A stretch of 64,000 bases of DNA. Source: Bradyrhizobium sp. 170 (GTDB lineage: Bacteria > Pseudomonadota > Alphaproteobacteria > Rhizobiales > Xanthobacteraceae). The position numbers were made by a program, and so were the translations under genes. This document shows, one piece after another, positions 25,118 to 52,586 of the stretch (position 1 is its first letter; every line of letters starts with the position of its first letter). The notes under the pieces are model-generated. The model had not been told where the DNA came from. It searched no databases and worked only from the letters and a program-made list of their open reading frames with translations. The DNA lies in NCBI RefSeq assembly GCF_023101085.1, contig NZ_CP064703.1:8122001-8186000 (forward strand), in the 5' to 3' direction.

Positions 25118-25329
25118 CGCGCGCGTACAAGAAAGCGCTGCGGCACAGGCGTTGAAGCGCTCGCGCATCTTTCAGAAATCTTAACGTCCGTTCATGTTTG
25201 TTCATCGGCCCCGCGCGCCGCGAACCAATTTGTAAGCACACGTTGGGGAAATTTGTCCCCAGCCTAAAAAAATTGTTGCGAAGCAGAATCAAAAGTCTTA
25301 TTTCCAGCCTTGCCCAATTTCGCACGTGC
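25118..25329. other. Spacer upstream of the ornithine decarboxylase leader
   Basis: No gene seen. It contains a hairpin or operator-like palindrome TGGGGA-N6-TCCCCA at 25244-25261 followed by a seven-A run. The promoter of the decarboxylase transcript must lie here or at the leader's edge, but no -35/-10 pair is convincing. Confidence 0.5.
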
Positions 25330-25560
25330 CTGTGGTCGTGTGTCAGTCGGTAGGTATCCGGACAAGAGGCCGGACAGCCGCCAAGGGATGAAGAACCGAG
25401 GGTCGCTCCTGTTCGAGTGGCCAGCATCTCTCTCAAGAGATGCCGTTGAAGGTCTCTGCATCCTTTGCAACCGTGACTGGCAGCCGGAGGCGAACCGGCG
25501 CACCCCGCTCTCAACGGGGGACGCGACTTAAAGCAACGACGGATCGGGCTTTTTTGGTCT
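25330..25560 (+). ncRNA. Structured 5' leader of ornithine decarboxylase, speF-motif candidate
   Basis: A chain of stem-loops: TCCGG/CCGGA (25357-25374); GCATCTCT/AGAGATGC with a CTCA loop (25424-25443); CCGG/CCGG (25484-25498); CCCCG/CGGGG (25503-25519). A run of six T follows (25550-25555), about 220 bases before the start codon. A conserved alphaproteobacterial RNA called the speF motif precedes ornithine decarboxylase genes; position, gene and hairpin-rich form fit it. The ligand or mechanism is not established, and a covariance-model scan would decide. Confidence 0.65.
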
Positions 25561-25772
25561 CTACCGGCATTCCAACGCCGGCGCGGGCTACTGAAAAGGC
25601 TTGTCCTTCATTGCCAGGTGTGCGGGCGGGAAATTCCCAACCAATCCACGGCAGCACAATTCGGTCTGAGTTCAAGGCCTTGTCGCGTCTCCATCGTGCG
25701 ACAACGCCGAAGCACTCATGTCCGAGATCAAAATTTGAACGGGTCCCGTCGCTGGGCCGTTTGGAGGGTGCT

Positions 25773-50878: not shown

Positions 50879-50895
50879 TAGCGATCTCGATGGCC

Positions 50896-50986
50896 GTAGG
50901 GTGGGCAAAGCGAAGCGTGCCCACCATTCATTCGGGTGGTGTCGGATAGATGGTGGGCACGGCGCAAGTGCGCCTTTGCCCACCCT
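50896..50986. repeat. REP-like palindrome, GTAGGGTGGGC family, split by IS110
   Basis: Same repeat as at 8821-8919, in opposite orientation. It runs from GTAGGGTGGGCAAAG to TTTGCCCACCCT and then stops short; the expected closing AC is found at 52572-52573, on the far side of the insertion element. Confidence 0.85.
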
Positions 50987-51144
50987 CATATGAGGCCTTT
51001 TGAGTCAAGCATCCCAACCGAGGCTTGGATGTAATTTTTTGCATTCGGTGGAGCGGCGGCGCGCGGAGCCATGCGTAGCGCAGCGTGCCGCCGCGGTCGG
51101 TGCGCTCAGGAACTGGCTTCCGGCGATTTATGCAGCAGCTCACT

Positions 51145-51300
51145 GCATCACCTCATATCCGGTCGGGCGGTTGCAGCCCGGTACCCACATTCCGCATGCT
51201 TGCGGCGAGGAAGCCACAGGGATGAGACCCATCTACGAAGCGGCCTGTTGATTTGGCCCAAGGGTGGCACGGTCATCATCCATTCCGCGCTGACCGCGGC
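51145..51300 (-). ncRNA. Predicted bridge RNA / seekRNA of the IS110 element
   Basis: Read in the transposase sense, this region holds in order: CCACCCU (from 51267-51261), equal to the left target; a GGCC/GGCC hairpin; UUCGUAG (from 51239-51233), complementary to the right target CTACGAA; GGAAUGU (from 51193-51187), equal to the left element end GGAATCT except one base; a GGGC/GCCC hairpin; AUAUGAG (from 51158-51152), equal to the right element end including the core. This matches the target-loop then donor-loop layout of bridge RNAs. The boundaries are approximate. Confidence 0.7.
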
Positions 51301-51334
51301 CGATGCCGCGACGCTGACGCGTTGCTTGAAACGT

Positions 51335-52498
51335 TTACGGCTTCGCGGCCTTGAGCAGGGCTCCTTCGGGGACCAGGCCAGTTGTGAGGTAGCGCCAGAG
51401 CGCCACCATCAGCTTGCGCGCCAGGGCCACGATGGCGATGCGCTTGTTGCGCTTGCTGGCATTGTTGTGGGTGCGGCTGCGGAACCATCGGGTGAGCGCA
51501 CTCTCCGGCTGATGCCGCAGCCACAGCCAGGAAAGTTCGATCGCGGCGCAGCGGGCGCGCGGATTGCCTGCCTTGCTGATGCCCTGGTCGCGGTCGATTC
51601 CGCCGCTCTGCCATGGGCTGGGCGTCAGCCCGAAATAGCTCGCGACCTCACGCCGGTTGCGGAAATCCTTGTAGAACACCTCGCTGGCCAGCGTCGTCGC
51701 GAACGCCGGGCCGAGGCATTTGAGCCGGAGCAATAGTTCGCTGCGCTCTGCCATCTGAACCGCCGCAGGTGCCGGATCCGCTTGAGCCGACGCCTGTGCG
51801 AGCGCCTCGAGCTGTTCGCGTACCAGCATCAGCCGCGCGTGCTCGTACTTGATCTCCGCCAGCATCTGCCGTGGCACCGCCTGGCCCTGCCAATCCCGCT
51901 GCGCCGCCAGCCAGTTCAGCCAGTCGCGCCGGCGCGGGTTCCCGACCGCCATGCCCAACAGCCGCAGCAGCGCCTTGATCCGGCTGGTGTGAGCGGTCTG
52001 TTCCTTGATCAGCCGGCCGCGTTCGCGGCTGGCGCGGCGGGCGTCCTCTTGCTCCGGCGCTGGTACCTGAACGATCCGTACCACCCGCGGCTCACCGCGC
52101 AGATACGCCATCAGCGTCCGCAGCATCTTCTCGCCATCGATCCGGTCGGTCTTCACCCGTCGCGCCCGTTGATCAACCGCAATGCTCGCAGGGTCAAACA
52201 CGTAGTTCGTGATCCCGGCCGCCATCAGAAGCCGGTGCAGCCAGAACCCATCGTAGCCCGCTTCGTAGCAGCTCACCACCGCCGGAATGGCTCCCAGCGC
52301 CCGAGCCGCCCGGTCGCGCTCCCGACCGACCAACGCCAACAGCTCGGCATGATCGCCCCCCTCCAGCCTATGGCGGGACATCTTACCTTTGTCCGGGCTG
52401 TGCAGCGTCACCAGCCAGCTCTTCTGACTCAGTTCGATTGCAACGAAAATTGTGCCACAATGCTCAACGGTGGGCGTGGCTACGGTCGATGCTTGCAT
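51335..52498 (-). CDS. IS110-family transposase (DEDD recombinase)
   Basis: A 387-residue RuvC-like/serine-containing recombinase. The first acidic residue is in IFVAIELSQKSW, where Glu replaces the usual Asp. It is followed by Glu in SCYEAGYDGF and two Asp in VKTDRIDGEKMLR. The C-terminal Tnp_20 domain has LKCLGPAFATTLASEVFY, YFGLTPSPWQSGGIDRDQGI and SKAGNPRARCAAIELSWLWL. Full length with no frameshift, so the element may be active. It recombines element and target DNA under guide-RNA control. Confidence 0.92.
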   Translation of the reverse strand: MQASTVATPTVEHCGTIFVAIELSQKSWLVTLHSPDKGKMSRHRLEGGDHAELLALVGRERDRAARALGAIPAVVSCYEAGYDGFWLHRLLMAAGITNYVFDPASIAVDQRARRVKTDRIDGEKMLRTLMAYLRGEPRVVRIVQVPAPEQEDARRASRERGRLIKEQTAHTSRIKALLRLLGMAVGNPRRRDWLNWLAAQRDWQGQAVPRQMLAEIKYEHARLMLVREQLEALAQASAQADPAPAAVQMAERSELLLRLKCLGPAFATTLASEVFYKDFRNRREVASYFGLTPSPWQSGGIDRDQGISKAGNPRARCAAIELSWLWLRHQPESALTRWFRSRTHNNASKRNKRIAIVALARKLMVALWRYLTTGLVPEGALLKAAKP

Positions 52499-52586
52499 CT
52501 GACTCTCCGATGGTTCGAGTGTGGAAACCCAAACCTACCGGAAAGGCCACGCTCACCGCCCCATGGAATCTACGAATCACCGCAAA

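Follow-up and report, generated by a model that had tools for sequence, protein, structure and literature searches.

Described systems and the Bradyrhizobium element

Two groups of RNA-guided insertion sequences stand closest to the element treated here, and are cited from the covered parts of the papers named. (i) The IS110 group includes IS621 and ISCro4, in which the first catalytic residue is Asp and the chains have 328 and 341 residues; in IS621 the RNA lies upstream of the transposase gene. (ii) The IS1111 group includes ISEc11, ISPa11 and ISKpn4, whose seekRNAs (Siddiquee et al. 2024, PMC11187229) lie in a downstream noncoding region with a top-strand match 5' of the bottom-strand match, and whose transposases have 330-350 amino acids (aa). 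The element of this report lies in a stretch of 64,000 nucleotides (nt) from Bradyrhizobium sp. 170 (contig NZ_CP064703.1, positions 8,122,001 to 8,186,000; hereafter the window), and contains an IS110-family transposase gene with an RNA region of ~168 nt (51281-51114) downstream of it. As judged from its sequence, it is almost certainly a member of the IS110 superfamily whose recombinase is steered by the element's own RNA. The mechanism has been described before; as a variant of it, the element combines a mixed layout with an altered active site.

The recombinase of the element matches the fold of IS621 and ISCro4. By contrast with those proteins, it has 387 aa and a Glu at the first catalytic place, and by contrast with IS621, the RNA is downstream of the transposase and the guide order relative to the element is reversed. 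The narrow IS110 group, defined by an upstream noncoding region and a bottom-strand match that comes first, is thus reversed here on both counts. The layout agrees instead with the IS1111 group in the long downstream noncoding region (medians of 315 bp on the right and 107 bp on the left in 53 loci, measured from tblastn ends), in the top-strand match that comes first (guide 1, then guide 2) and in the 7 bp and 3 bp extensions. The RNA had been placed downstream of the transposase, as in IS1111-type elements, by an initial annotation made from the sequence, and it stands there: the window copy has 350 bp to the right of the gene and 71 bp to the left. The element departs from the IS1111 group in transposase length and in its inverted repeats, which in that group are 7-17 bp (usually 11-13 bp, PMC11187229) and here are 6 bp with a mismatch. 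No donor guides are described for IS1111 seekRNAs in the covered parts of PMC11187229. Donor guides of many IS1111 orthologues are placed in a multiloop by Durrant et al. (PMC11208160), as they are here. Of the RNA features of the superfamily, the element has target guides, donor guides (guide 4 clear, guide 3 weak) and a handshake base. As read from sequence, the clade mixes an IS1111-like RNA position and guide order with a longer transposase and a Glu for the first catalytic Asp. Siddiquee et al. (PMC11187229, parts covered) note IS110-family elements whose noncoding region is downstream; these may be this group.

Other likenesses are to (i) ISRel9 of Rhizobium, an IS110-family element named in NZ_CP013600.1 and likened by its protein alone, which is 46% identical and has the same Glu, (ii) ISPa11, which also targets repetitive extragenic palindromic (REP) sequences (PMC11187229, parts covered), and (iii) ISRm19 of Sinorhizobium meliloti, an IS110-family element likened by description, found in REP sequences in 4/4 copies (Tobes and Pareja 2006, PMC1525189, parts covered).

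Guides of the element and of its relatives

The junctions of the element were placed by aligning the three copies in this genome, with the guides left unused; they read TTCGTAG/ATTCCATGG on the left and CATATGAG/GGTGGGC on the right (slash at the junction). Within the noncoding region, the four guide segments proposed in the initial annotation are present in the order and the transposase sense claimed (Table 1). Scored as an ordered chain of four 7-mers, they match flanks and ends in 27 of 28 letters, a score reached by none of 5000 dinucleotide shuffles of the 156-nt region (maximum 23, mean 18.5), by none of 202 windows of the transposase gene (maximum 20), and not by the opposite strand of the region (19).

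In the proposed mechanism, the RNA would fold into two loops. The first loop would read the target, with guide 1 pairing on the right of a two-base core, to the top strand, and guide 2 on its left, to the bottom strand; the second loop would read the joined element ends likewise, with guide 3 on the left end and guide 4 on the right end. The recombinase would join both DNAs at their common core (AG in the transposase sense, CT on the other strand), cut beside the core and swap strands, after which the base that follows guide 4 would pair with the incoming target and lock the exchange. The host offers hundreds of copies of a REP-like palindrome, the edge of which fits guides 1 and 2. The order, position and strand logic, the covariation of the guides, the RNA helices and the handshake base are taken from sequence, while transcription, binding, circle formation, serine chemistry and the order of steps would carry over from the work on IS621 and seekRNAs.

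Relatives of the element were sought in the genus, and 62 of 265 genomes (its own included) hold one at an E value of 1e-60 or better; copies were fetched with their flanks and then delimited. Distant relatives are inserted at other junctions, including GTAG/CCCGGGTG, CGAAG/CAATCC, GAGAG/GTTCTGG, GCAG/TCATGCGC, GGAAG/TTGTGGCC and CCAG/TATTCC, and more. The complementary letters of their guide 1 are, in the same order, ACCCGGGCU, GGAUUGC, CCAGAACC, GCGCAUGACU, GCCACAACU and GGAAUAC. Natural retargeting is read from these sequences, as the right flanks GGTGGGC, CCCGGGTG, CAATCC, GTTCTGG, TCATGCGC and TTGTGGCC each oppose a fitting predicted guide 1, imperfect cases being noted apart (see below). 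An unanchored scan of 9-mers across the whole 190-nt region of 15 types compared cognate with non-cognate partners over 20000 permutations, of which none reached the fit of guide 1 (7.60 of 9 cognate vs 6.16 non-cognate). Guide 2 scored 6.77 vs 6.20 (13 types, 68/20000) and guide 4 scored 7.07 vs 6.19 (0/20000), the latter partly circular, a motif at guide 4 having served to excise the region. The best match falls at the guide's own place in 13/15 types for guide 1 and in only 2/14 for guide 3.

The comparison extends to other genera through a covariance model (R1, described below) that was given 85 loci, of which 64 came from a genome collection (among the best 80 of 564 found) and were mostly alphaproteobacterial by title. 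Junctions were called free of the guides in 53 of the 81 loci that the model found; with 18 Bradyrhizobium loci, three with N or a cut flank and one duplicate set aside, 31 held-out elements with 30 distinct right flanks remain. In every guide, two core letters (four in guide 4, AT included, which leaves it three free letters) are fixed by the junction-calling rule, for cognate and non-cognate partners alike. In this set, cognate fits exceed non-cognate fits for guide 1 (6.29 vs 3.72 of 8), guide 2 (6.42 vs 4.23 of 8), guide 4 (7.00 vs 5.75 of 7, exact in 31/31) and, when anchored, guide 3 (5.16 vs 4.76 of 7), each with 0/20000 permutations as high. The covariation with flanks and ends that the initial annotation had put forward as a check is thus found for guides 1 and 2 (in Bradyrhizobium and in the held-out set) and for guide 4 (held-out), while for guide 3 it appears in the anchored comparison and fails in the unanchored one.

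Pairing was also resolved position by position in 44 elements of the 81 hits (both junctions called, no N, distinct flanks), with the register taken, for cognate and other partners equally, where the fit was best. For guide 1, right-flank positions 1-7 pair in strict fractions of 0.75-0.95, against 0.32-0.48 for other partners. Guide 2 pairs best beside the core (0.98) and falls to 0.64 across five positions, against 0.45-0.52, and guide 4 pairs at all seven positions (1.00).

Once strands have been exchanged in IS621, the bases that follow the right donor guide pair with the incoming target (PMC11208158, parts covered). In the same 44 elements, the base that follows guide 4 matches the first right-flank base, by identity or as a G-U equivalent, in 44/44 and by identity in 31/44, with 0/20000 permutations reaching either count; five other DNA positions used as controls fit in 21-32 of 44. 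No signal is seen at positions +2 to +4 after guide 4 in these elements, and the base that follows guide 2 is nearly constant (A in 39/44) and uninformative as a handshake. The pairing was unused in locating guides or ends. That the base behind guide 4 tracks the target makes sense only if this guide sits at the core on the donor strand.

Predicted RNA

Model R1 was built from a hand-drawn structure on only 20 close Bradyrhizobium sequences (transposase at least 70% identical), and finds the RNA in 81 of the 85 diverged loci, in all 81 downstream of the transposase and starting 42-103 nt beyond its tblastn end; L128, L142, L144 and L151 are missed, and the match in L167 is partial. In 385 genomes of the class, R1 has hits at an E value of 1e-5 in three, its own included, a count that reflects a close-relative model with strict filters and hence gives no prevalence. 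In the 81-row alignment, 92.0% of cells are paired (72.0% when shuffled) and two-sided changes occur in 37 of 39 pairs; covariation scores 0.461, compared to 0.140 when shuffled and at most 0.081 for slid versions. The alignment (A5) was fitted to the structure it serves to support, so its scores lean towards that structure. Support for the predicted fold comes from this covariation. The claim of bridge-RNA strand logic, a target loop followed by a donor loop, is borne out by the covariation of both guides and helices, and the hairpins said to separate the guide pairs, GGCC (51258-51255) with GGCC (51245-51242) and GGGC (51179-51176) with GCCC (51168-51165), recur in the predicted fold. When 39 diverse noncoding regions were aligned unguided with MAFFT, the guide regions were misaligned and RNAalifold therefore gave only 8 pairs; the hand-drawn structure and covariance model took its place. 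In the window scanned with Rfam at gathering scores, no family covers the RNA of the element.

Transposase

The protein scores 184.1 bits against NF033542 (cut-off 140) and 53 bits against PF02371 (cut-off 21.3); the score against PF01548, 25.3 bits, is below the cut-off of 29. It has the RuvC-like domain, the coiled coil and the Tnp domain with Ser-Gly. The catalytic tetrad E22-E79-D118-D121 reads E-E-D-D rather than, letter for letter, DEDD. E22 would correspond to D11 of IS621, given a structural alignment that begins at residues 15 and 4, respectively; D11 helps hold a metal ion, and its mutation abolishes recombination (PMC11208158, parts covered). As E22 replaces the first Asp, the element is classed as a variant of the IS110 superfamily. 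Glu occupies this place in 118/118 aligned proteins of the clade (119 distinct, one of fewer than 300 residues omitted) and in four relatives at 39-47% identity (ISRel9 and three of beta- or gammaproteobacteria), whereas Asp is found in 6/6 distant IS110 proteins, including ISCro4 and L015 of this genome. The main text of PMC11208160 has no passage with 'glutam', and that of PMC11187229 has no 'EEDD'.

Target sites, copies and ends

All three copies in this Bradyrhizobium genome share one insertion point relative to a REP-like palindrome. The palindromes are ~38 bp, very abundant and often arranged as inverted pairs some 70-85 bp apart, and serve as the landing pad of the element; we take them to resemble the REPIN-type family. 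Intact GTAGGGTGGGC sites number 248 in the genome, compared to 6 when the pattern is reversed. That the element is linked to REP-like repeats explains how it finds hundreds of landing sites. The transposase of the second copy (L010) is three codons short just ahead of the catalytic KTD motif, and that of the third (L011) is one codon short at another place; neither deletion occurs in the window copy.

Close relatives share the target. In 38 distinct insertions (transposase at least 70% identical, both flanks read), the right flank starts with GGTGG in 35, GATGGG in two and GGGTGG in one, while the left flank ends in GTAG in 37 and ATAG in one. Guide 2 had been proposed as a 7-mer; its letters are present, but the two outer U matter little, as TTCGTAG occurs in 8/38 of these insertions and GTAG in 37/38. 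A preference at guide 2 position -3 was sought in this genome and set aside: the finding of 3/3 copies at CGTAG says nothing because 188/248 genome sites are already CGTAG. In genome G095, whose guide has U at that position, 3/4 copies lie at TGTAG vs 9/48 sites, an excess that is suggestive only. The four G095 copies (L076-L079) also differ in guide 1, which is CCAUCCU (CCAUCU in L079) and not CCACCCU; two lie at GATGGG and two at GGTGGG, as allowed by a guide-1 U that pairs with A or G. L136, a member of the held-out set on a Nevskia contig from a metagenome-assembled genome (a gammaproteobacterial bin), is 72% identical, has the same REP-type target and looks like a Bradyrhizobium element; it is perhaps misbinned rhizobial DNA. 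Copies with the same RNA at unrelated targets, which the initial annotation had named as evidence against its reading, are not seen among close relatives (3/3 copies and 38/38 insertions have one of these right flanks) and are approached in the distant L121-L123.

The initial annotation saw no subterminal inverted repeats, a statement that has to be corrected: short ones exist (ATGGGG/CCTCAT), degenerate in the window copy (5/6 paired, one mismatch) and 6/6 in the second copy of the genome. Their spacing follows the IS1111 rule (PMC11187229, parts covered), by which 7 bp on the left and 3 bp on the right lie beyond the repeats. A guide-free search finds a repeat pair of at least 5 bp with this 7/3 spacing in 53/81 loci, compared to 0-3/81 for nine other seed triplets; the repeats of the clade are 5-11 bp, and at least 7 bp in 27/53 calls.

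Alternative explanations

Several results weigh against reading the element as an RNA-steered recombinase with four guides. No junction pair was obtained by the guide-free rule in 28 of the 81 model hits. The fit of guide 1 falls to 6/9 in L045 and L121, and in L030 and L032 its best unanchored match lies elsewhere; in the held-out set it falls to 2/8 in L171, where the window of comparison was cut short by the alignment, and to 5/8 in L161, L165, L166, L170, L191 and L192. At its last core letter, guide 1 pairs in only 0.45 of the 44 elements. L121-L123 (46% identity) have the same RNA region and the left flank GGTACGAG in common, while their right flanks agree only in the GA after the core and fit guide 1 unequally. 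One copy of genome G193 (L118) has the usual left flank and an unrelated right flank, perhaps through a later deletion or rearrangement. The permutations ignore descent throughout.

Other such results concern the donor guides, and bear on the explanation that survives best among the alternatives. It holds that the RNA guides target choice only, in the seekRNA sense, while the protein reads the ends via inverted repeats, and that the likeness of guides 3 and 4 to the ends has some other cause, for example a shared ancestry of RNA and ends. The 7/3-spaced inverted repeats are real, and the target matches of Siddiquee et al. 2024 (PMC11187229) lie in a short form of 70-100 nt, with no donor guides in the parts covered. 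Guide 3 is weak: unanchored, it fits cognate ends in 5.86 letters vs 5.96 for non-cognate ends, a value reached by 18324/20000 permutations (14 types), and hence gives no signal. Among the 44 elements, it is informative only at the third left-end base (0.98 vs 0.61), its core letters pair in fractions of 0.14 (the first, strict) and 0.59, and its first two bases sit in a conserved hairpin arm. The match of guide 4 to the right end rests on three free letters and on few types of right end and guide (8 held-out), and shared descent contributes to it. By contrast, guide 4 is exact at its three variable positions in 44/44, compared to 0.51-0.70 for other partners, rare right-end types of the held-out set such as ATAAAAG and ATGCGAG included, and the handshake base directly behind it follows the target. 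On this evidence, guidance of target choice only is unlikely.

A second explanation takes the segments for DNA sites within the element that a protein binds, or for degenerate copies of its ends, with no RNA involved; it is very improbable. In its favor, the RNA of the window folds no more stably than its shuffles (z -0.38; 69/200 fold as well). Against it, the helices covary, the matches are ordered, strand-consistent and in register with a fold common to 81 loci, and an RNA co-purifies with the transposase for elements of the same order (PMC11187229, parts covered). Chance matches picked by a knowing reader can be dismissed: lone 7-letter matches are easy to find when sought, but the ordered chain stands above every shuffle, the covariation recurs independently in 31 held-out elements, and chance is already refuted.

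Features of the locus

Coordinates of the element and its parts are collected in Table 1. TTGA(C/T) occurs close to the right end in 52/53 junction calls; a promoter scan of the linear element has no match to a full promoter. Elsewhere in the window, the Rfam family ar45, an alphaproteobacterial small RNA (25312-25553), adjoins a speF leader (25562-25719) on the plus strand, both above the gathering score and spanning 25312-25719 in all.

Table 1. Features of the insertion sequence and its flanks, in window positions.
Feature	Position	Strand	Remarks
Whole insertion sequence, 1585 bp	50985..52569	-	Boundaries from three genomic copies in differing surroundings; right-end core AG included
Matching AG at left junction	52571-52570	-	
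Left flank, left target half TTCGTAG	52570..52576	-	Core AG 52571-52570; from copy alignment
Right flank, REP-like palindrome pair, GGTGGGC at junction	50895..50984	-	Repeat found at many places in the genome
Left subterminal inverted repeat ATGGGG	52559..52564	-	7 bp inside left junction, core counted
Right subterminal inverted repeat CCTCAT	50990..50995	-	3 bp before core
TTGACT, -35-like box in right end	51003..51008	-	Points across circle junction
Transposase/recombinase gene, IS110 family, 387 aa	51335..52498	-	
Codon of E22, at place of first catalytic Asp (D11 of IS621)	52433..52435	-	Register inferred from structural alignment
Predicted bridge RNA/seekRNA, ~168 nt	51114..51281	-	Covariance model R1, 192 bits; window among the model's 20 sequences
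Target-binding loop (predicted)	51220..51281	-	Closing helix 51281-51271/51229-51220; 10/10 pairs with two-sided changes, 95.4% of cells paired
Donor-binding multiloop (predicted)	51115..51215	-	Closing helix 51215-51209/51121-51115; 7/7 pairs with two-sided changes, 92.2% of cells paired
Guide 1, CCACCCU	51261..51267	-	Would pair with right-flank top strand and core; 7/7 letters
Guide 2, UUCGUAG	51233..51239	-	Would pair with left-flank bottom strand and core; 7/7 letters
Guide 3, GGAAUGU	51187..51193	-	Would pair with left-element-end top strand; weak; 6/7 letters vs GGAATCT, one core mismatch
Guide 4, AUAUGAG	51152..51158	-	Would pair with right-element-end bottom strand and core; 7/7 letters
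Handshake base after guide 4	51151	-	Would pair with first right-flank base after strand exchange

Significance

With rather less than even confidence, we propose that the element represents a clade of bridge recombinases centred on alphaproteobacteria and distinct from both textbook groups. The clade would combine an RNA of IS1111 order, complete with target guides, donor guides and a handshake, with short covarying subterminal repeats and a Glu for the otherwise conserved first Asp, which holds the metal ion in IS621, and would retarget repeatedly among host repeats by drift of two guides. If this is true, the clade is a naturally diversified and compact system for programmable recombination. 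All clade proteins examined have Glu for Asp at a metal ligand, which raises a direct biochemical question.

Earlier evidence for the IS1111 layout consists of target guides (Siddiquee et al., PMC11187229) or of six diverse elements inspected by hand (Durrant et al., PMC11208160), as given in the covered parts of these papers. Here, natural variation alone indicates that the target guides, the right donor guide and the handshake pairing known from IS621 hold for a reversed, IS1111-like layout, and the clade provides unusually clear natural evidence for guide-directed targeting. With dozens of natural guide-target pairs, retargeting is open to study as ongoing evolution, and the relatives aimed elsewhere, which carry matching guide changes, show how such elements choose and change their target.
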